From NCBI RefSeq assembly GCF_016772475.1, contig NZ_CP068595.1, forward strand, positions 3,968,001 to 4,032,000: DNA of 64,000 bases, written 5' to 3'. The translations under genes and the position numbers were made by a program. Below, one piece after another: positions 1,131-43,870 of the stretch. Positions within the stretch are counted from its first letter, which is position 1; every line of letters begins with the position of its first letter. This stretch comes from Paenibacillus sonchi (GTDB taxonomy: Bacteria; Bacillota; Bacilli; Paenibacillales; Paenibacillaceae). The notes under the pieces were generated by a model. It was not told where the DNA came from. It saw nothing but the letters and a program-made list of their open reading frames with translations, and did no database searches.

Positions 1131-3058
1131 GTGCCCAGAAGTACGCATTATCTAGTTGGTGAAAGTCCAACCAAGGGAGGGACCAAGCCACCTTTGTAGC
1201 TAGGATGCTTGCATATGGCGAAATCTGTGTGTAAAAGCGCATCGACAAAAGTATCAGTCAGAGACTGGGCGAGCAACAATCCAGGCCGCAACATCAAGTG
1301 AATCCTGCCGCGTCGTCAAAAAGGCCCTGCGAAGGGGAACAGAGGGAGCCGAGTCCCGCAACTATGGACGAAGGCCAAGGAAACTGTGCAGAACTTGGAA
1401 CAGCAGTGAAGAACCCTCCGGCGTAATGGGAACGGCATGGATTGAAAGATAGTGCAGTGAACTGGGGAGACCCTCCCCCACACGGGAGAATTTTTTTTTG
1501 TAGGAACCCGTAAAGAGACGCTCTATAAGTCCAGAAGACGAAGTGAACCGTCTGTGGGAAGGGAGTCCGAGGGGCTCATAGTACCGAAGAACCTAAGGAC
1601 AACATAACCTTAGGGAGGGAAGGAGCCCTGCTTTGTTTATGCTTTTGGAGGAGGTACGAGTGAGTGAATGCCAAAGGGCTAACGACACCAAAGGAAAAAG
1701 TTCAAGAACTCCAAGAAAAGCTAGGTCATGCGGCCAAGGAGAACAGCAAGCGTAAATTCCATGCCCTGTACGACAAAATCCACCGCTGGGACGTGCTGTG
1801 CGAAGCCTGGAAACGGGTGAAGGCGAATAAGGGGGCTGCAGGAGTAGATGCCGTGACGCTCGCAGATATTGAGGAACAAGGAGAAACAAGCTTCCTCAAG
1901 GCTTGCGAGAGAGATTGAAAGAAGGCAACTACTATCCCCAGCCCGTACGGCGGCACTTTATCCCAAAGAAAGACGGGAAGCTAAGACCGCTGGGCATACC
2001 CACTGTTCGCGACCGAGTCATACAGATGGCAACTAAGCTGGTAATTGAACCCATCTTCGAAGCAGACTTCGAAGAAGTCTCTTACGGATTTCGTCCGAAA
2101 CGAAGTGCGAAAGGAGCGTTGGAACGAATTCGGAAAGCCTGCAACCGCAAAGGGAATTGGGTAGTCGACGTCGATATCCAAGGTTACTTCGACAATATTA
2201 ATCAAGAGAAGCTCATGAAATTGATACAGATGCGTATCAATGACAGGCGGATCCTGAAATTAATACGGAAGTGGCTACAGGCGGGAGTCATGGAAGAAGG
2301 AAACGTAAAGCGATCTGATTTAGGCACTCCGCAAGGTGGCGTCATTTCACCGCTGCTGGCGAATATCTACCTGCACTACTTTGACCGATTGTGGGAGAAA
2401 CACGGAAGTGGATTGGGAGAGCTGACAAGGTATGCAGACGACTTTGTAGTGGTCTGCAAAACCAAAAAAGGACGCCGAACATGCGTATGAACTCATACGC
2501 AGAATCATGGAACGTCTGGAACTCACCCTACACCCGACGAAAACCCGAATTGTAGGCTTGTGGACAGGAGACGAAGGGTTCGACTTTTTAGGAATGCACC
2601 ACCGAAAAACGAAAGCAGAAACTTCTCAAGGGAAGGTATATTATACCACGCAACAGTGGCTAACGAAGAAGGCAGAGGAACGGATCCGAGGCGTGGTCAA
2701 AAACAGATTAGCACCGCCGAGCATGCGCTCAAGATCGTTCGCGGAACAGGTGGAATGGCTCAATCCAAAAATTCAAGGATGGAGAAATTACTACTACACG
2801 AACTATAGCCAAAAGAGGTTAACTAAGCTGGATTGGTATATTTTGCAGAGATTAACCCGGTGGTATGCGAAGAAGAGACAACGTAGAAGATGGATGAGTT
2901 CATTATCTGAGGTTAAGTATATTGCCAACATGTATGGACTGAAAACGCTATTGTGATCTGCATGCCCATGAATGACAAACATCGGAAAGCCGTATGAGGG
3001 AAAACCTCACGTACGGTTTGATGAGGAGGGGCTGGTTTAAATCCAGCCCTTTACTCTA
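1131..3058 (+). mobile_element. Group II intron, copy 2, complete, in tandem with copy 1
   Basis: This is a full-length intron of about 1.93 kb. It begins near 1131 with GTGCCCAG, a GTG-type 5' end usual for bacterial group II introns. About 530 bases of structured leader (domains I-III) precede the reading frame in domain IV. Domains V and VI lie near 2989-3058, ending CTCTA. Only a few bases (GGC) separate it from copy 1. Downstream, bases 3059-3085 match the 27-bp linker of the 51-bp repeat family, which fixes the 3' boundary at about 3058. The 5' boundary is uncertain by about 3 bases. The ORF is broken twice, so mobility would need help from another copy. Confidence 0.8.
1664..2956 (+). 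pseudogene. ltrA: Group II intron reverse transcriptase (copy 2, two frameshifts)
   Basis: The gene starts at GTG 1664, six bases after a strong GGAGGAGG ribosome site. The repaired protein would be about 430 aa with RT0-RT7, YADD and X domain, and no HNH domain. Two frame breaks are visible. A G is missing near 1900, where FLK should be followed by GLRERLKEG. One extra A lies in the A-run near 2463-2468, where copy 1 has five As and this copy has six. The second break is certain by comparison with copy 1; the first is inferred from protein continuity. Either the copy is dead or the homopolymers were miscalled. Confidence 0.8.
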
Positions 3059-3109
3059 GGGCGCGTCGGGGCCGGCAGAGGAGGAAACAACGGCAAAAGT
3101 ACCGTTGTT
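3059..3109 (+). repeat. Single 51-bp unit (27-bp linker plus hairpin) abutting the intron
   Basis: Bases 3059-3085 are a 27-bp GC-rich linker (GGGCGCGTCG at its start). Bases 3086-3109 form the hairpin: AACAACGG and CCGTTGTT arms with a divergent middle. Linker length and arm sequence match the arrays at 15730-15906 and 53353-53733. The preceding hairpin expected in an array is replaced by the intron end. Confidence 0.8.
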
Positions 3110-3124
3110 GAGCGCGTCGCTAAG

Positions 3125-3551
3125 CTCTATCCGCTCCTGGCAGATTGCGGAAGGTGATATGCAGCTGATCAGCGGGCCGCTTGATAAGCTGGGCATCAAC
3201 TATTATAACGGGACTGCTGCCCGGCATGACAGCGAAGACGGGCTAATGCAGATCAGTACGGTGAATGTGGGGATGGGCACACGGATATCGGCTGGCCGAT
3301 CTATCCGCAGGGATTTTACATCGTTCTTAGCCGCATTCATGAATTGATGGAGATATTCCGGTTTTTATTACGTAGAATGGTGCATCCTATAATGACGAGC
3401 CGGTGAAGGGAGCGCGGCGGATCGGAAAAGGATGGAGAACTTTGAACGGACCTACGGCTACACGATGCGGCTTGGTCTGATCCATGTGGGTTACAAAGAC
3501 ACCCGCCAGAACAAGGGAGGCCAGATTTTACCAAAATACGGTTGCGAATAA
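3125..3551 (+). pseudogene. GH1 beta-glucosidase/6-phospho-beta-glucosidase remnant
   Basis: These are decayed C-terminal pieces of a family 1 glycoside hydrolase. One frame reads GDMQLISGPLDKLGINYYN and RHDSEDG, the GH1 segment before the nucleophile. A frame change near 3280 leads to DIGWPIYPQGFYIVL. The TENG nucleophile region is missing. A further shifted piece near 3440-3551 reads NFERTYGYTMRLGLIHVGY, matching the GH1 C-terminus, and ends at a stop. The N-terminal two thirds are absent and the 5' edge merges into the hairpin-repeat DNA. This decay is real, with deletions and several frames, unlike the single homopolymer breaks elsewhere in the window. Confidence 0.75.
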
Positions 3552-3584
3552 CGGTTTTTACATTTGAATAATGAATCTAATGGC

Positions 3585-3619
3585 GGAGGCCTTGCGGTAA
3601 AATGCAGGCTTCCGTTTTT
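3585..3619 (+). terminator. Terminator-like hairpin after the GH1 remnant
   Basis: An imperfect stem (GGAGGCCTTGC with GCAGGCTTCC around an 8-base loop) is followed by GTTTTTG. It probably once ended the GH1 transcript. The rest of the gap up to mtlA holds the mtl promoter region. Confidence 0.5.
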
Positions 3620-3725
3620 GCACATTAGGCCGTTCGGAGGAGAAAAAATGCCGGTAAATAGCCCTTTGGCAGGAACTCTTAAATGTTGTCAACAATGTTC
3701 ATGACGAAACCGTGTTTTCAATTTG

Positions 3726-3754
3726 CTGACAAAGAAAGCGCTTTGATTTACGAT
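3726..3754 (+). promoter_or_regulatory. Candidate mtl promoter with embedded cre (CcpA) site
   Basis: A -35-like CTGACA (3726-3731) and a -10-like TACGAT (3749-3754) are spaced 17 bp apart. The spacer contains AGAAAGCGCTTTGA (3733-3746), close to the CcpA operator consensus TGAAAGCGCTTTCA. CcpA bound there would block polymerase, giving glucose repression of mannitol use. The promoter boxes are weak, as expected where the activator MtlR is needed. Confidence 0.5.
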
Positions 3755-3829
3755 GTCTGCATAAGGGATAACCTTTCAAAACGCTTCAAGATGGGGCATC
3801 CCATTCACTAACATAAGGGGGCATTTTAA

Positions 3830-5289
3830 ATGGCCACAACAGCAACAACGCAAACTTCATCCGGTGGTGTAAGGGTGAAGGTCCAACAATTCGGCCGCAT
3901 GCTCAGCGGTATGGTTATGCCGAACATCGGCGCTTTTATCGCCTGGGGGTTAATTACGGCTTTATTTATTCCGACCGGCTGGTTACCCAATAAAGATCTG
4001 GCAATGCTGGTTGACCCAATGATCAAGTTCCTGCTGCCGCTGCTTATCGGTTATACAGGCGGGCAGATGGTCAACGGGAAGCGCGGCGGTGTCATCGGGG
4101 CGATTGCGACCATGGGGGTTATCGTCGGATCAGACATTCCAATGTTCCTTGGAGCCATGATTGCCGGGCCTTTGGCGGGCTGGGTGCTGAGACTCTTCGA
4201 CCGTGCAGTTGAAGGGAAAATCAAGGCAGGCTTTGAAATGCTGGTCAACAACTTCTCGCTCGGGATTATCGGCGGTATTTTGACGCTGGGAGCCTACAAA
4301 GGGATCGGGCCGCTGGTTCAGGGGCTGACCAATATTTTGTCTAACGGTGTTGAATTTCTTGTCAATCACAACCTGCTGCCGCTGGTTAACATCATTATCG
4401 AGCCGGCAAAGGTATTGTTCCTGAACAATGCGATCAACCACGGAATTCTGAGTCCCATCGCTGCTGAAGAATCGGCGCGGATCGGGAAATCCATCCTGTT
4501 CATGCTGGAATCCAACCCGGGTCCAGGTCTTGGTATCCTGCTTGCTTACTGGCTGGTTGGCAAAGGTTCGGCCAAATCCTCCGCACCTGGTGCGGTGATC
4601 ATTCACTTCCTGGGGGTATCCATGAAATTTACTTCCCGTATATCCTGATGAATCCGCGTCTGATTCTGGCAGTCATCGGCGGCGGTGTAAGCGGTACCTT
4701 TACCTTCCAGCTTCTTGGAGCGGGACTCACTTCTTCGCCATCTCCGGGCAGTATCTTCGCTTACCTTGCCATGACGCCTAAGGGCGGTTATGGACCGATG
4801 TTCGCCGGTGTTATTGTAGCAACCGTTGTTTCCTTCCTGCTCGCTGCGCTTCTGCTTAAGACCAGCAGCAAGAACAACGAGGATGACGTGGATCTGGAAG
4901 AAGCTTCTGCAAAAATGCGTGAAATGAAAGCTGCCGGTACTGCGGCTAACAACACAAATGCAACGACAGCAAATGTAATCACTCCTAATGTAGCAGCCAA
5001 CGTACGCAACAAAGGAGATGTCAACAAGATCGTCTTTGCTTGTGACGCAGGTATGGGCTCCAGTGCAATGGGCGCTTCCGTTCTGCGGAAGAAGCTGCAG
5101 AATGCAGGCGTCAACATCACGGTTGTGAACGCTGCAGTCAGTGAAATCCCTGTGGATGCTGACATTGTAGTCACCCAGAAAACACTGACGGACCGGGCGA
5201 TTGCCAGCAATCCGAACGCAGAGCATATCTCGATAGACAACTTCCTGAAGAGCCCGAAATATGACGAGCTGGTGGAACGTTTGAAGTAA
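3830..5289 (+). CDS. mtlA: PTS mannitol transporter subunit IICB (frameshifted)
   Basis: This is the membrane permease and phosphotransferase that imports mannitol as mannitol-1-phosphate. The EIIC part is multi-spanning and has the GIHE-type substrate motif region. A linker rich in Ala, Asn and Thr leads to the EIIB domain, whose phosphocysteine is in [10 protein letters not shown] (codon at 5041). The frame breaks near 4612-4617: the sequence has five Gs where six would restore [19 protein letters not shown]. Repaired length is about 486 aa, normal for IICB. The start at 3830 follows AGGGGGC. Everything else is well conserved, so a sequencing error is plausible. Confidence 0.9.
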
Positions 5290-38706: not shown

Positions 38707-39240
38707 TTATGGAGTGTACTGCTGTACGATCGAAGTAACTTTGCCAGCCTGGATTGTGATGTGGTAAGGGGACTGGCTCAGGTCGATGATGCCGGTTTTG
38801 GCGAATTCGCTGATGAACTTATCAAGAGATATGTGCTCATTCCAGTTGATATCCAGATCCTCCATGTGCCCGGTATGATCGTAAATTTGCATCGTTACCG
38901 CAGCATTATCGGCAATGGGATAGGAAGTAAGCGAGTCACTGTCATTTACGATATAGTAGCCGTCCGGCGTACCGCCAAGCTCTGCCGCTGCGTCTGGCTC
39001 CCGTTCGGCAAAGATGCGGTCGGCTTCAGCGCCTTCATACCATTCGATCTGGTCGGCGGTCATGACCGTATGTCCGTCTTTGGACTTCAGCGCGTGTATG
39101 TAAACCGTCAATTCCTGACTTTGGCTTATATCGCCGCTTTGCGCTTCTGCGCGTGTACCTACTGTACTTGCCGTAGTCACAAGGGAGAGGAACAGCAGAA
39201 CCAGAGCAGGAAACAGATAAACCGATTTTTGTTTGAACAT
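38707..39240 (-). CDS. Secreted protein of unknown function
   Basis: This 177-aa protein has an N-terminal signal peptide (basic FKQKS, hydrophobic VYLFPALVLLFLSLV, cleavage near TRAEA). The mature part contains LTVYIHALKSKDGHTVMTADQIEWYEG and a DGYYIVNDS segment, seen in uncharacterised Bacillales secreted proteins. No catalytic motif is visible. It is divergent from the YhgE gene; the 223-bp gap presumably holds both promoters. Confidence 0.75.
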   Translation of the reverse strand: MFKQKSVYLFPALVLLFLSLVTTASTVGTRAEAQSGDISQSQELTVYIHALKSKDGHTVMTADQIEWYEGAEADRIFAEREPDAAAELGGTPDGYYIVNDSDSLTSYPIADNAAVTMQIYDHTGHMEDLDINWNEHISLDKFISEFAKTGIIDLSQSPYHITIQAGKVTSIVQQYTP

Positions 39241-39463
39241 GTTAGAATTCCCCCTTGGTATAAATATGACACGGTATACGTCTATATACCTAATTACCCT
39301 TCGCAGTATTTCTCAAACGGGTATTATACCTCTATAAACGTAGATCGCGAAAAAATGTTGCAAAAAGTTTCGGGCCTGTGATGCGGGAAAGTAAGGGAAG
39401 TAAAAAGAACTGCTCCAGGGCATATTAAACTATTCAGATTACAGTATAGAGGTGTGGTGAAAC

Positions 39464-42142
39464 ATGGCGGCAGTGTGGCGGATTTATAAAAAAGATTGGG
39501 CGGGCCTGTTCAAAGCACCGGTGGCCCTATTGTTGATAGCAGCACTCGCATTGCTTCCCTCGGTCTACGATTGGGTGAATGTCGCTGCGGTATGGGACCC
39601 CTACAGCAATACATCCGGCATTCCAATCGCCGTGGCCAGTGTGGATCAGGGAGCTGCAGTCGATGGCAAAAGCTTCAACATCGGCGATGAGGTGCTGGAG
39701 AGCCTGCGGAGCAACAAATCGCTGGGCTGGCGGTTCACGGATGTTAAATCGGCGGAGCACGGGGTGCAGCGCGGGGATTATTATGCCAGCATCGTCATTC
39801 CGGCAGAATTCTCACAGCGGATGGCGGGGGTTCTCGAAGGGGAACTTGTGAAGCCGGAGGTGGATTATACCGTAAATGAAAAAATCAACGCGATTGCGCC
39901 CAAAATTACGGCGAAAGGGGCTTCTACGATTACCGCGCAGATCAGTGAGCGGTTCACGGAAACCCTCAGCAGCACGGTGCTGACGGCCCTCAGTGCCATC
40001 GACCGCGAATTCCAGGCCGAGCTGCCGGTTATCCGCAAGGTGGAGCAGGGGTTATTCCAGCTGGAGGCAGGCCTGCCGGAGATTGAACAGGCAGGGAGGC
40101 TGGTGCTCAAGCTGCAGCAGGACTGGCCGCAGCTTGCGGATTCGGCCGGAAGGATTGCCGCGCTTACGGATAAGCTGCCGGAAGTGGAGCAGGCGGGCAA
40201 GGCGGCCGAGCTGCTCGATGAGCACTGGGGGCAGATCAGCGATGCCGCGGGCAGGCTGCAGGAGCTGCAGGGCAGGCTCCCGGATCTGGCCCGCGCGGCG
40301 GAGCTGCTGTCCGGCCTGGATGCCGGCTTCAGCCGGGTCGGGGAGGCCCTGGACCGGGCCTCGGACAGACTGGAGGAGGCCGGGAAGGTTGTTGCTGCGG
40401 CTGCCCGGGCTCTGCCGCAGACCGACCGGATCGCGGCAGCGGGGCCTGCCTTCGGGCAGGAGCTGCAGCAGTATCTGGCGCAGAACCGCGCGGCTTTCAC
40501 CGCGGTTCCGCAGGTGCTGCAGCAGAATCTCCATCTGCTGCAGCAGAATGCCGACAGCGCAGCGCTGCTGGCCAGCCAGCTCGCGGAAGGCACCGCGCCG
40601 CCGGACGCAGCGGCGGCTTCCCGGCTGCAGCTGGCCGCTGACCGGCTGACCGCCGGAAGCGGCGCGCTGCAGCACACGGCGGCTCTTTTCGCCGCCTTGA
40701 ACACCCTCGCGCCCGGCACCGTGCCGGGCAGCGAGTTCCGCGCCCTGGCCGGGGCGCGGGCCTCCTGGGCCGCCGGCGCTGCGCAGGCGGCCCGCCTCGC
40801 CGCCGCGCTGCGGGACGGCGGCGGGCTGGACCCCGCTGCGCTGGCGCAGCTTGGCGGTGATTCCGCCAAGGGCGCAGCAGCGCTGGGCGGAATCCTCGCG
40901 CGCTACAGCGCGGAGGGGCAGTCTGCGCTGCAGGGCACGCTGCAGCAGCTGACAGCCGTGGCGGGGACCGCCGCCACGGCCTTGCAGCAGGCGCCGCAGC
41001 GGCTGGCGGCGCTGAGCGCGGTGCTGGATGAAGCGGGAACCGCCATCCAGTACGGGCAGACCGGCCTGGCCGCCTTGCGGGACAAGCTGCCCGCGGCAGC
41101 GGGCGAGGTCAGCGCGGCGGCAGCCGGCATAAGCGGCAGGCTGGCAGCGTTCACCGGCTTCGTGACGGATGTGCTGCCGCGCATTCAGAATGGGCTGCCT
41201 GCTGCCGGGGAACACATTCATGCGGCGGCTGAATTCGCCCGGAAGGACCTGCCGGGGGCGGAGGAGAAATTCCGCCGCGCGTCAGCGTGGATCACCGCCG
41301 GTCTTCCCCGGGCAGACCGGGGGGTGAACCGGGCGGCCGAGCTGGTGCGGAATGATCTTCCCGCCCTGGAGCATGCTGTCCGCCGCGCCGCCGATACGGT
41401 CCGCAAGGTCAAGCGGGAGGTCAACCTGGAGGAAATCGCCCAATTGCTGGGCGGGGATATCAAGGGCACCAGCGATTTTCTGGCCAGCCCTGTGGTTCTG
41501 AAGGAAAAGGCGCTGTATCCCATCCCCAATTACGGATCGGCGATGACACCGTTTTACGTAGTGCTCTCCTTGTGGGTAGGCGGCACCCTGCTGATTTCCC
41601 TGCTGCGGACCGGTGTGGATACCGGTGGTATCCCATACCGGCGGCACCAGCTGTATTTTGGGCGCCTGCTGACTTTTCTGACCGTAGGCATTTTTCAGGC
41701 TCTGATAGCGGTATTGGGCAATATGTATTTGCTGAAATGCTATGTTGCCGACAAGCAGTGGTTCGTGCTGTTTGCCGTCCTGATCAGCATCGTTTTTGTG
41801 ACGATCGTATTTACACTGGTCTACGTCTTCGGCAATCTCGGCAAAGGTATAGCCATCGTGTTCATGGTGCTCCAGTTCTCCAGTTCGGGCGGGACTTTTC
41901 CGATCAGCACCACCGGGCGCTTTTTTCAAATCCTGAACCCGTTTATGCCCTTTACCTATGCCATCAGCCTGCTGAGAGAAGCCGTTGGCGGCATACTGCC
42001 GGAGGTAGCTGTCCGTGACGCTCTGTATCTGGTTCTGTTCGGTATGCTTGCCCTGGTGCTGGCGCTTACCCTCCAGAAGCCGCTGGAACGGTTCATCCGG
42101 CGTGCGGCAGAACAGGCAGAGGCGTCCAAGCTGATCTCCTAA
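39464..42142 (+). CDS. YhgE/Pip family membrane protein
   Basis: This 892-aa protein has one N-terminal membrane helix (residues about 18-38), a very long extracellular region of about 620 residues made of Ala/Leu/Gln-rich helices, then five or so C-terminal helices of the ABC-2 type (AMTPFYVVLSLWVGG onward). The first extracellular part (DPYSNTSGIPIAVASVDQGA) is the Pip/YhgE signature. Relatives act as phage receptors (Lactococcus Pip, B. subtilis YueB) or near type VII secretion. The middle is extremely GC-rich and repetitive. GAGGTGTGG precedes the ATG. Confidence 0.88.
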   Translation: MAAVWRIYKKDWAGLFKAPVALLLIAALALLPSVYDWVNVAAVWDPYSNTSGIPIAVASVDQGAAVDGKSFNIGDEVLESLRSNKSLGWRFTDVKSAEHGVQRGDYYASIVIPAEFSQRMAGVLEGELVKPEVDYTVNEKINAIAPKITAKGASTITAQISERFTETLSSTVLTALSAIDREFQAELPVIRKVEQGLFQLEAGLPEIEQAGRLVLKLQQDWPQLADSAGRIAALTDKLPEVEQAGKAAELLDEHWGQISDAAGRLQELQGRLPDLARAAELLSGLDAGFSRVGEALDRASDRLEEAGKVVAAAARALPQTDRIAAAGPAFGQELQQYLAQNRAAFTAVPQVLQQNLHLLQQNADSAALLASQLAEGTAPPDAAAASRLQLAADRLTAGSGALQHTAALFAALNTLAPGTVPGSEFRALAGARASWAAGAAQAARLAAALRDGGGLDPAALAQLGGDSAKGAAALGGILARYSAEGQSALQGTLQQLTAVAGTAATALQQAPQRLAALSAVLDEAGTAIQYGQTGLAALRDKLPAAAGEVSAAAAGISGRLAAFTGFVTDVLPRIQNGLPAAGEHIHAAAEFARKDLPGAEEKFRRASAWITAGLPRADRGVNRAAELVRNDLPALEHAVRRAADTVRKVKREVNLEEIAQLLGGDIKGTSDFLASPVVLKEKALYPIPNYGSAMTPFYVVLSLWVGGTLLISLLRTGVDTGGIPYRRHQLYFGRLLTFLTVGIFQALIAVLGNMYLLKCYVADKQWFVLFAVLISIVFVTIVFTLVYVFGNLGKGIAIVFMVLQFSSSGGTFPISTTGRFFQILNPFMPFTYAISLLREAVGGILPEVAVRDALYLVLFGMLALVLALTLQKPLERFIRRAAEQAEASKLIS

Positions 42143-42291
42143 AACCCTGGCCTGATCCTGGAACACCTAATTCTTTCCTGTCAACCTGTGTTCAACCTGC
42201 CAATGAACATTGACCTGTGCCATAGGAGAACCTAAGATATAGGAATATCTGGATTATCGTTCAAATATCTGGTTCTTAGGACGGTGTTTGT

Positions 42292-43689
42292 TTGCAATTC
42301 AAAAATACAATACAAGCAAAACTTGACGTTTACTTGAAGAGAGAAGGCATCACCATCAATCAATTTGCCGGAATATCGGGTGTGAACTCCGGTACGCTCA
42401 GCAGCATTATTAATGGGAACCGTCCCGTTGCCGTGAAGCAATTGGACCGGATTACAGCGGGAATGGGACTTCCCGAAGGTGAATGGTATGAATTATATAT
42501 AGATGAATATGTGGTCAACTCCACCCCTGACTGGCGGCGGCTGGGACCCTTTCTGCAGCGCTGTGCGGAGCTGGACAAGCTGGAATGCATCCGGCAGGTA
42601 GTGCGGACCATTATGGATAATATATCCTATGCCCAGGCGGTATTTGAAATGGGGGAGGAATGGTTCGCGCAAGGCAAACGCCGGGCTGCTGCGCTGCTGT
42701 ACGAAGGCGTGGCGGAAAGTGAGAAGTATCAGCATTCAGAGCGGCTGGCCTTATGCCAATACCGCTTGTTCAAGATTGCGCTGGGACAAGACCAGGAAGC
42801 CAATCTGCGCGCGGCGGTGCATTTTGAATATTTTGTGGAACGTCTGGATGAGGCGGACCAGTTGAATGCACTGAAGGACTTGGCGAATATTTACGCTTCC
42901 TTGCACCGCTGGGATACAGTTGATTTTTTGGCGGAAAAAATGGGACACAAAGCGTCCATCCAGTACCACAATAAATATCATAAAGTCAGCCGCCGTGCAG
43001 CACATAAGGAAACCGCCAGACCTCTTTGCTTCTATATTCTGTATTCGTATCTGCTGCGATCGGCTGTTTGTGCTGAACACGGGGATTACGGACAGGCCCT
43101 CCACTATGTCTCGCGTTATTCCGATTTCAGCTGGGTCCAGGAGAGAACGGAGGAGGCCCGGCAGATCATGGAGCAGTTCAGGGAATGGGCTGAAGCCAAT
43201 ACATATCTGTACCGCCTGATGTCAGGAGAGACGGCTGTGCTTGCCGGCTATGTCGATTTTATCAGCACCAGAGAGAACGAGATCATTCCGGGCCTGACCA
43301 AAATCATGCAAGCGGCCAACCGCTTTGGCTTGAACGTGGATTCTATTATTGAGCGCTTCGAACCCCACGCGGGCTTGAAAGAGCAACGGACCCTGATGGG
43401 GAAACGAAATGTGCAGGTCACCGAAGATCAATATGCGGTTCTATTATATGAGCTGTCTGTATATTATTTAAAAACTCAAAGAGTTCACAGGGGGCTCGCT
43501 TATTTGCTTCAAAATCTGGACCTTTCTGTTAGAATGAACAGTGACAGCGCTATTGTTGGGTGTGTAGCATTATTTGAGCAGTACAGACATCTCAGCTCCG
43601 CCGAAGACCGGGAACGATATAAACTTCTAATTGGTGAGGTGCAGAAGACTGATGAAAAGAAAAGTGGCTCTGCTGCTGGCAATAGGTAG
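42292..43689 (+). CDS. XRE-family regulator with TPR-like domain (RRNPP-type)
   Basis: This 465-aa protein has an N-terminal Cro/C1 helix-turn-helix (TINQFAGISGVNSGTLSSIINGN, residues about 20-42) followed by about 400 residues of degenerate helical repeats (for example QAVFEMGEEWFAQGKRRAAALLYEGVAESEKYQ and DLANIYASLHRWDTVDFLAEKMG). This is the plan of RRNPP regulators, which bind re-imported signal peptides. The start is TTG at 42292. Its last 38 bases overlap, in another frame, a small gene for an exported peptide, as in Rap-Phr pairs. Confidence 0.85.
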   Translation: MQFKNTIQAKLDVYLKREGITINQFAGISGVNSGTLSSIINGNRPVAVKQLDRITAGMGLPEGEWYELYIDEYVVNSTPDWRRLGPFLQRCAELDKLECIRQVVRTIMDNISYAQAVFEMGEEWFAQGKRRAAALLYEGVAESEKYQHSERLALCQYRLFKIALGQDQEANLRAAVHFEYFVERLDEADQLNALKDLANIYASLHRWDTVDFLAEKMGHKASIQYHNKYHKVSRRAAHKETARPLCFYILYSYLLRSAVCAEHGDYGQALHYVSRYSDFSWVQERTEEARQIMEQFREWAEANTYLYRLMSGETAVLAGYVDFISTRENEIIPGLTKIMQAANRFGLNVDSIIERFEPHAGLKEQRTLMGKRNVQVTEDQYAVLLYELSVYYLKTQRVHRGLAYLLQNLDLSVRMNSDSAIVGCVALFEQYRHLSSAEDRERYKLLIGEVQKTDEKKSGSAAGNR

Positions 43690-43786
43690 CATTGTTTTGG
43701 CTGTAGAAGCCCGGGCATTGGTGATGCAAACCGCTTCCGCCCATTCAAGCATTGAGCCTTTGACACATGGAATCGGCGCCGAATAG
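43652..43786 (+). CDS. Phr-like signalling propeptide, 44 aa
   Basis: This short gene begins with ATG at 43652 inside the regulator gene and runs past its stop. The product starts MKRK, continues with a hydrophobic export signal (VALLLAIGSIVLAVEA) and a region with a possible signal-peptidase site at QTASA, and ends HSSIEPLTHGIGAE. Length, export signal and overlap with a TPR regulator match Phr/NprX-type pro-pheromones; the active peptide would come from the C-terminal part. A GAGGTG lies somewhat far (about 11 bases) upstream, so translation may be coupled. Identification is by architecture, not by homology. Confidence 0.65.
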   Translation: MKRKVALLLAIGSIVLAVEARALVMQTASAHSSIEPLTHGIGAE

Positions 43787-43845
43787 GTCTATGACTGAAG
43801 TAAGGTGATTTTGTCAGGCGGTTGATTGTTCAAAAGCAAACCAAG

Positions 43846-43870
43846 CCTCTCTTTCACAAGAGAGGTTTTA
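43846..43870 (+). terminator. Terminator after the regulator-propeptide pair
   Basis: CCTCTCTT-tcac-AAGAGAGG is followed by TTTTATTG. Confidence 0.88.

Follow-up and report, generated by a model that had tools for sequence, protein, structure and literature searches.

The closest described relatives of the gene pair reported here are the Alo systems, which were defined in Paenibacillus polymyxa ATCC 842 (Voichek et al. 2020, PMC7425212). As presented in that paper, they are an RRNPP-type family of receptors (AloR) that combine a helix-turn-helix (HTH) domain with tetratricopeptide repeats (TPR) and are accompanied by short downstream open reading frames (ORFs) of 32-50 amino acids (aa). According to the same source, fragments of 9 out of 14 AloP peptides are secreted, orphan AloR receptors exist, and a downstream spo0E-like gene whose expression is driven by AloR13 is shut off by AloP13 (SHGRGG). 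AloR possibly belongs to the RRNPPA group according to PMC9765709 and is counted among the known subfamilies in PMC10075063. Searches of an open-licence library returned PMC7425212 as the only paper with a title or abstract on Alo systems, besides two RRNPP surveys; AloR and AloP are each mentioned a single time in PMC6843138. Here, a 64,000-nucleotide (nt) stretch of DNA from the soil bacterium Paenibacillus sonchi (the window, in which all coordinates are given) was analyzed for a receptor gene, aloR, and a small gene overlapping its 3' end, aloP. A previous sequence-only reading had proposed an RRNPP-type receptor and an overlapping propeptide with an export signal that form one unit. This proposal is well supported and can be made more precise: the two genes are an AloR-AloP quorum-sensing pair working by the general peptide-receptor mechanism, with a probability of roughly 0.88.

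The receptor gene aloR is located at 42292..43689 on the plus strand, starts with TTG and encodes a protein of 465 aa of the HTH plus TPR type, as indicated by the ORF list, translation, homology and a structure model. From the single sequence, the match to HTH_3 is weak (residues 15-64, E 0.0014, below the Pfam curated cut-off); with a profile built on 49 relatives, residues 17-76 are matched to HTH control proteins from the PDB (E 0.0008 at best). The predicted structure, with a mean predicted local distance difference test (pLDDT) score of 87.7, has N-terminal helices at residues 7-75 and aligns to TPR superhelices, NprR and Rap among them. The predicted fold is an HTH domain plus a TPR superhelix. 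No TPR model was matched in the Pfam search of the regulator, and most AloR TPRs escape detection, according to PMC7425212.

Homologs of the receptor are numerous. The host genome (7.78 Mb, three contigs) contains 13 matches, the window receptor itself included: eight cover more than 90% of the receptor, two (L007 and L010) adjoin each other and three are partial, which gives seven further near-full-length AloR copies besides that in the window. L007 and L010 (G000:C1:790143-791383) appear to be one sibling AloR broken into two overlapping pieces, and two AloR-AloP pairs, L005 and L009, are found on the second contig (G000:C2, 256 kb), followed by Spo0E-like matches at distances of 1.6 and 0.8 kb. 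In a protein collection, 1060 proteins among 8000 scored candidates match the receptor at E up to 0.001, and the species names given for the best 120 of these are nearly all Paenibacillus. In addition, 33 plasmid records match (Paenibacillus 25, Brevibacillus 5, Brevibacterium 2 and Arthrobacter 1). The receptor on a plasmid of P. polymyxa ATCC 842 shares 41.6% identity over 98% of the query (E 8e-112) and is presumably one of the numbered aloR1-16. Its gene is overlapped by 35 nt by an annotated 43-aa coding sequence, whose tail, STQGYIGGA, is without the HG core described below. The suggestion that such small genes fall below usual gene-calling limits is only partly true, since this plasmid record annotates a comparable one.

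The small gene aloP runs from the ATG at 43652 to the stop codon at 43786 on the plus strand and encodes the 44-aa propeptide MKRKVALLLAIGSIVLAVEARALVMQTASAHSSIEPLTHGIGAE, as supported by its overlap, ribosome-binding site, conservation and tail pattern. The overlap with aloR is 38 nt (43652-43689), and the ribosome-binding site GAGGTG is situated within aloR (43636..43641, plus strand), 10 nt before the ATG, and is kept in the six closer relatives. The mechanical ORF list also holds a longer form of 51 aa that starts with TTG at 43631; the ATG at 43652 is preferred for its ribosome-binding site and its occurrence in the six closer relatives. The regulator of the HTH plus TPR-like type, the 38-base overlap and the 44-aa small gene of the sequence-only reading are confirmed. 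The small gene has a start resembling an export signal, as judged from charge and hydrophobicity, and the signal is estimated at about residues 1-22. The tail of AloP is HSSIEPLTHGIGAE (...EPLTHGIGAE), and the signaling peptide is predicted to lie within THGIGAE, coded at 43763-43783. The pair is followed by a terminator-like hairpin of 11 pairs at 43843..43868 (plus strand), read from the sequence, with similar stems in some relatives; this agrees with the terminator that had been noted right after the pair.

The small ORF is short and no family model in Pfam, PHROGs or NCBIfam matches AloP, as would be expected of a chance frame or of a non-signaling one, such as a small membrane peptide. 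The 3' ends of 199 ORFs of at least 200 aa, taken from the window and 12 relative regions, were scanned for comparable frames. A small frame bearing an export signal was found at 14 of the 199 ends under a loose definition, and at 10 under a strict one (ATG, ribosome-binding site, basic start, hydrophobic core and an overlap of 21-61 nt, all set after the AloPs had been seen); all 10 were AloR genes. The combination of aloR with an overlapping small frame is more than chance. The conservation of aloP, the selection acting on it and the overlap and HG tail that recur across the family, presented below, also argue against a chance or non-signaling frame, which is very improbable.

All six closer relatives, whose receptors are 73-98% identical to that of the window, have an uninterrupted small frame that overlaps aloR by the same length. 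In the window clade of seven members, frame, ribosome-binding site, overlap and an HGxG tail are kept in 7/7; the tails read EPLTHGIGAE in four, EPLTHGVGAE in two and QPLSHGTGLD in one. Outside the overlap, the ratio of nonsynonymous to synonymous differences per site (pN/pS) is 0.28, from 125.8 nonsynonymous differences over 1036.7 sites versus 155.2 synonymous differences over 358.3 sites, summed over 15 pairs from six genomes with G073 left out. This shows that aloP is under purifying selection.

The same architecture is observed throughout the sampled family. A search of the 3' ends of 63 AloR loci, in which the thresholds define what counts as no peptide, yielded a frame bearing an export signal at 38 of them. 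One candidate (L006, at +63, with a TTG start and no Alo features) was dropped, leaving 37 candidate AloPs; their rows are related, and therefore counts over the 37 are not independent. The overlap is exactly 38 nt in 29 of the 37, and the relative frame is identical in 36. HG occurs within the last 10 residues in 35/37, with about five expected by composition, and HGxG occurs in 30/37. Variable peptide tails had been anticipated, and this holds between paralogs, around the HG core, but not among the orthologs, of which six out of seven have a nearly constant tail. At the phage locus L076 the scan found no peptide frame though the record annotates one; the scan can therefore miss some. This locus, at 2661-4484 of Brevibacillus phage SecTim467 (KT151957.1), encodes an AloR-like receptor of 28% identity, overlapped by 46 nt by the annotated small ORF and with a Spo0E-like gene just upstream, and is possibly a phage-borne Alo-type module.

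A tree was made of 60 AloRs, leaving out L006, L007 and L076; L014/L017 and L015/L019 stem from the same genomes and were each counted once. The window receptor belongs to a clade of seven (support 98/96), every member of which has aloP. Its sister is a clade of 13 rows (100/100), of which all 13 sampled are without aloP and keep the receptor and the promoter repeat; the fork that joins both clades is weak (84/62). The expectation that relatives keep the small frame is therefore correct for the six closer relatives but not for this neighboring clade, which lost the frame and kept the receptor. L022 and L025, near the window clade, also have no aloP, and reading the 3' ends of the orphan clade, L022 and L025 revealed no frame with an export signal. 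In total, 24 of the 25 peptide-less 3' ends were read (all except that of the broken L007); L006 and two rows with a peptide were read as well, as a comparison. Presence and absence of the peptide require seven changes on the tree, at least six of them forced by well-supported branches, indicating that peptide loss is recurrent.

These losses could mean that aloP is decaying in the window as well and that AloR is a peptide-independent regulator, as may hold in the orphan clade. The missing aloP in the 13 orphan-clade receptors and in the nearer branches L022 and L025 agrees with this, as do the promoter and repeat that stay conserved in orphan receptors and the host-genome paralog L002, which keeps only a remnant of the peptide frame. 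However, all seven members of the window clade keep the complete aloP arrangement, and pN/pS is 0.28. Decay of aloP in the window is improbable. At L002 (G000:C1:2311217-2312530), the peptide seems lost; its remnant, ...YMTHGAGG, is located in another frame inside the receptor 3' end, and a Spo0E-like match lies about 230 nt downstream.

Upstream of aloR, a sigma-A-type promoter is predicted at 42210..42238 on the plus strand (TTGACC, 17 nt, TAAGAT) from sequence and conservation. All 24 locus-clade members sampled have TTGACC upstream of aloR, as do 24 of the 39 other AloR loci. Just after the -10 box lies a direct repeat with a 20-bp period, GAATATCTGG / AAATATCTGG (42243..42272, plus strand), whose conservation makes it a candidate autoregulatory operator. 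A degenerate GAATATCTGG-type pair with this period occurs in 22/24 locus-clade members versus 0/39 other AloR upstream regions, by a pattern drawn from the same sequences in which it was counted. Genome-wide, only the aloR site matches with zero mismatches, and the next-best sites are five at three mismatches, versus two for a reversed control pattern. In a repeat scan, the GAATATCTGG-type pair of period 20 was the best repeat, with at least 8/10 matches, in 19 of the 24 clade members; L022 has a shifted copy, L018 has 7/10 matches, and L023, L024 and L025 are without such a best repeat, of which L025 passes the looser pattern. Because 0 to 21 of 100 shuffles were equally good when the 19 repeats were taken singly, the weight of the repeat comes from its conservation. 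No general direct-repeat operator for AloRs was found: each of the 39 other upstream regions had at least 6/100 shuffles as good (best L088). The conserved promoter, the clade-limited repeat and the unique genome site make autoregulation the leading hypothesis, and the chances that AloR-AloP autoregulates through this repeat, judged from the sequence, are about even.

The sequence-only reading had named the upstream YhgE/Pip gene as a possible target. This gene, yhgE/pip (39464..42142, plus strand), is recognized by NCBIfam TIGR03061 and TIGR03062 and by synteny. Divergent from it lies a gene for a predicted secreted protein of 177 aa (38707..39240, minus strand), a landmark of the locus that is near-universal in the genus: 99 of 100 genus genomes contain a single match to it, and its protein has no Pfam match. 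AloR was placed at this locus in 25 genomes by matches at E up to 1e-150 whose positions were compared with the 177-aa gene. The arrangement would suit a pair that mainly controls its neighbors yhgE/pip and the secreted-protein gene, since in 15 of the 25 genomes yhgE is the immediate upstream neighbor, about 150 bp away, and the 177-aa gene is present in all 25. However, among the 16 genomes without AloR in the best 30 177-aa loci, yhgE stands beside the 177-aa gene in 10 (a fragment in two, none in four), and these 10 have no AloR match in the 8.5-kb stretch. Ten of the 25 AloRs at the locus, including that of G073 of the window clade, have no adjoining yhgE, and the direct repeat has no second genome site within two mismatches and none was seen in the yhgE/177-aa promoter region. 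Control of these neighbors as the main role of the pair is unlikely, and the proposed YhgE/Pip target is not supported; yhgE and the 177-aa gene form an older landmark of the locus. The genes downstream of aloR-aloP differ widely among the compared genomes. Spo0E was also rejected as a linked target of this copy: the host genome has 10 Spo0E-like matches, six of them within 1.6 kb of sibling AloRs and none in the window.

Two further observations concern this neighborhood. The promoter region of the 177-aa gene (39241-39463) contains, on the minus strand, a conserved TGCAAC-N16-CGTTTA-like block, which we take to resemble a promoter of extracytoplasmic function (ECF) sigma factors. A differential-expression table on phosphate sources for P. 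sonchi SBR5 lists a 'YhgE/Pip N-terminal domain protein' at -3.41 (PMC7793946), which may not be the yhgE of the window.

By analogy with Alo13, translation from the start codon inside aloR would give a 44-aa AloP precursor, which would be exported by way of its signal sequence and cleaved extracellularly. A short peptide from the C-terminus that includes THGIG, with THGIGAE or a 6-8-mer from the same region the most probable form, would then re-enter the cell and bind the TPR superhelix of AloR. This binding would alter how AloR regulates transcription as an HTH protein, in a direction likewise presumed from Alo13. The most evident DNA target of AloR would be its own promoter, where the conserved direct repeat means that the pair probably autoregulates; other targets would be unlinked. 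Tentatively, the window clade may be a Spo0E-independent Alo branch with a fixed chromosomal address, in which AloR and THGIG form a self-contained loop acting mainly on its own direct-repeat operator. The neighboring lineage, having lost the peptide and kept receptor and operator, may then carry a peptide-independent or eavesdropping regulator. Three testable additions follow: a putative AloR operator, an HG core (usually HGxG) that is predicted for the peptide and common to 35/37 sampled AloPs, and neighboring clades with and without the peptide, in which it can be asked what an orphan quorum receptor does.

Other peptide-receptor systems match less well. Rap proteins have no HTH and carry an N-terminal three-helix bundle with a phosphatase or response-regulator role, whereas the N-terminus of the window receptor looks like a DNA-binding HTH, which argues against Rap-Phr. 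NprR-NprX also combines a receptor of HTH plus TPR fold with an adjacent propeptide. The TPR part of the window model aligns with 4gpk and 5dbk, and its HTH is found via HTH_3 and the profile, but the receptor has no match to any NprR chain in the PDB (E up to 1, as a single sequence or profile). Compared with the arbitrium system AimR-AimP, it scores 12.5 bits versus the NCBIfam AimR cut-off of 70. The coding pattern of the AloP13 tail gave 15 matches in 14 of 100 genus genomes, none of the 15 loci had an AloR match, and none of the frames read at six of them was an AloP; Alo13 of that form therefore seems absent from this genome set. The window copy differs from described Alo systems in its position at the yhgE/177-aa gene locus, and from some of them in having no Spo0E-like gene directly downstream, a non-defining trait. 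The likenesses to AloR-AloP (PMC7425212) are an HTH-TPR receptor followed by a secreted-type propeptide gene overlapping its 3' end, a Paenibacillus host with many copies per genome, an HG core in the AloP tail as in the SHGRGG of AloP13, sibling copies near Spo0E-like genes, and a 44-aa ORF with a hydrophobic N-terminus within the 32-50 aa size range. The pair is real and nameable, and it settles a question without introducing a new class: it looks like a further member of the already described Alo family.
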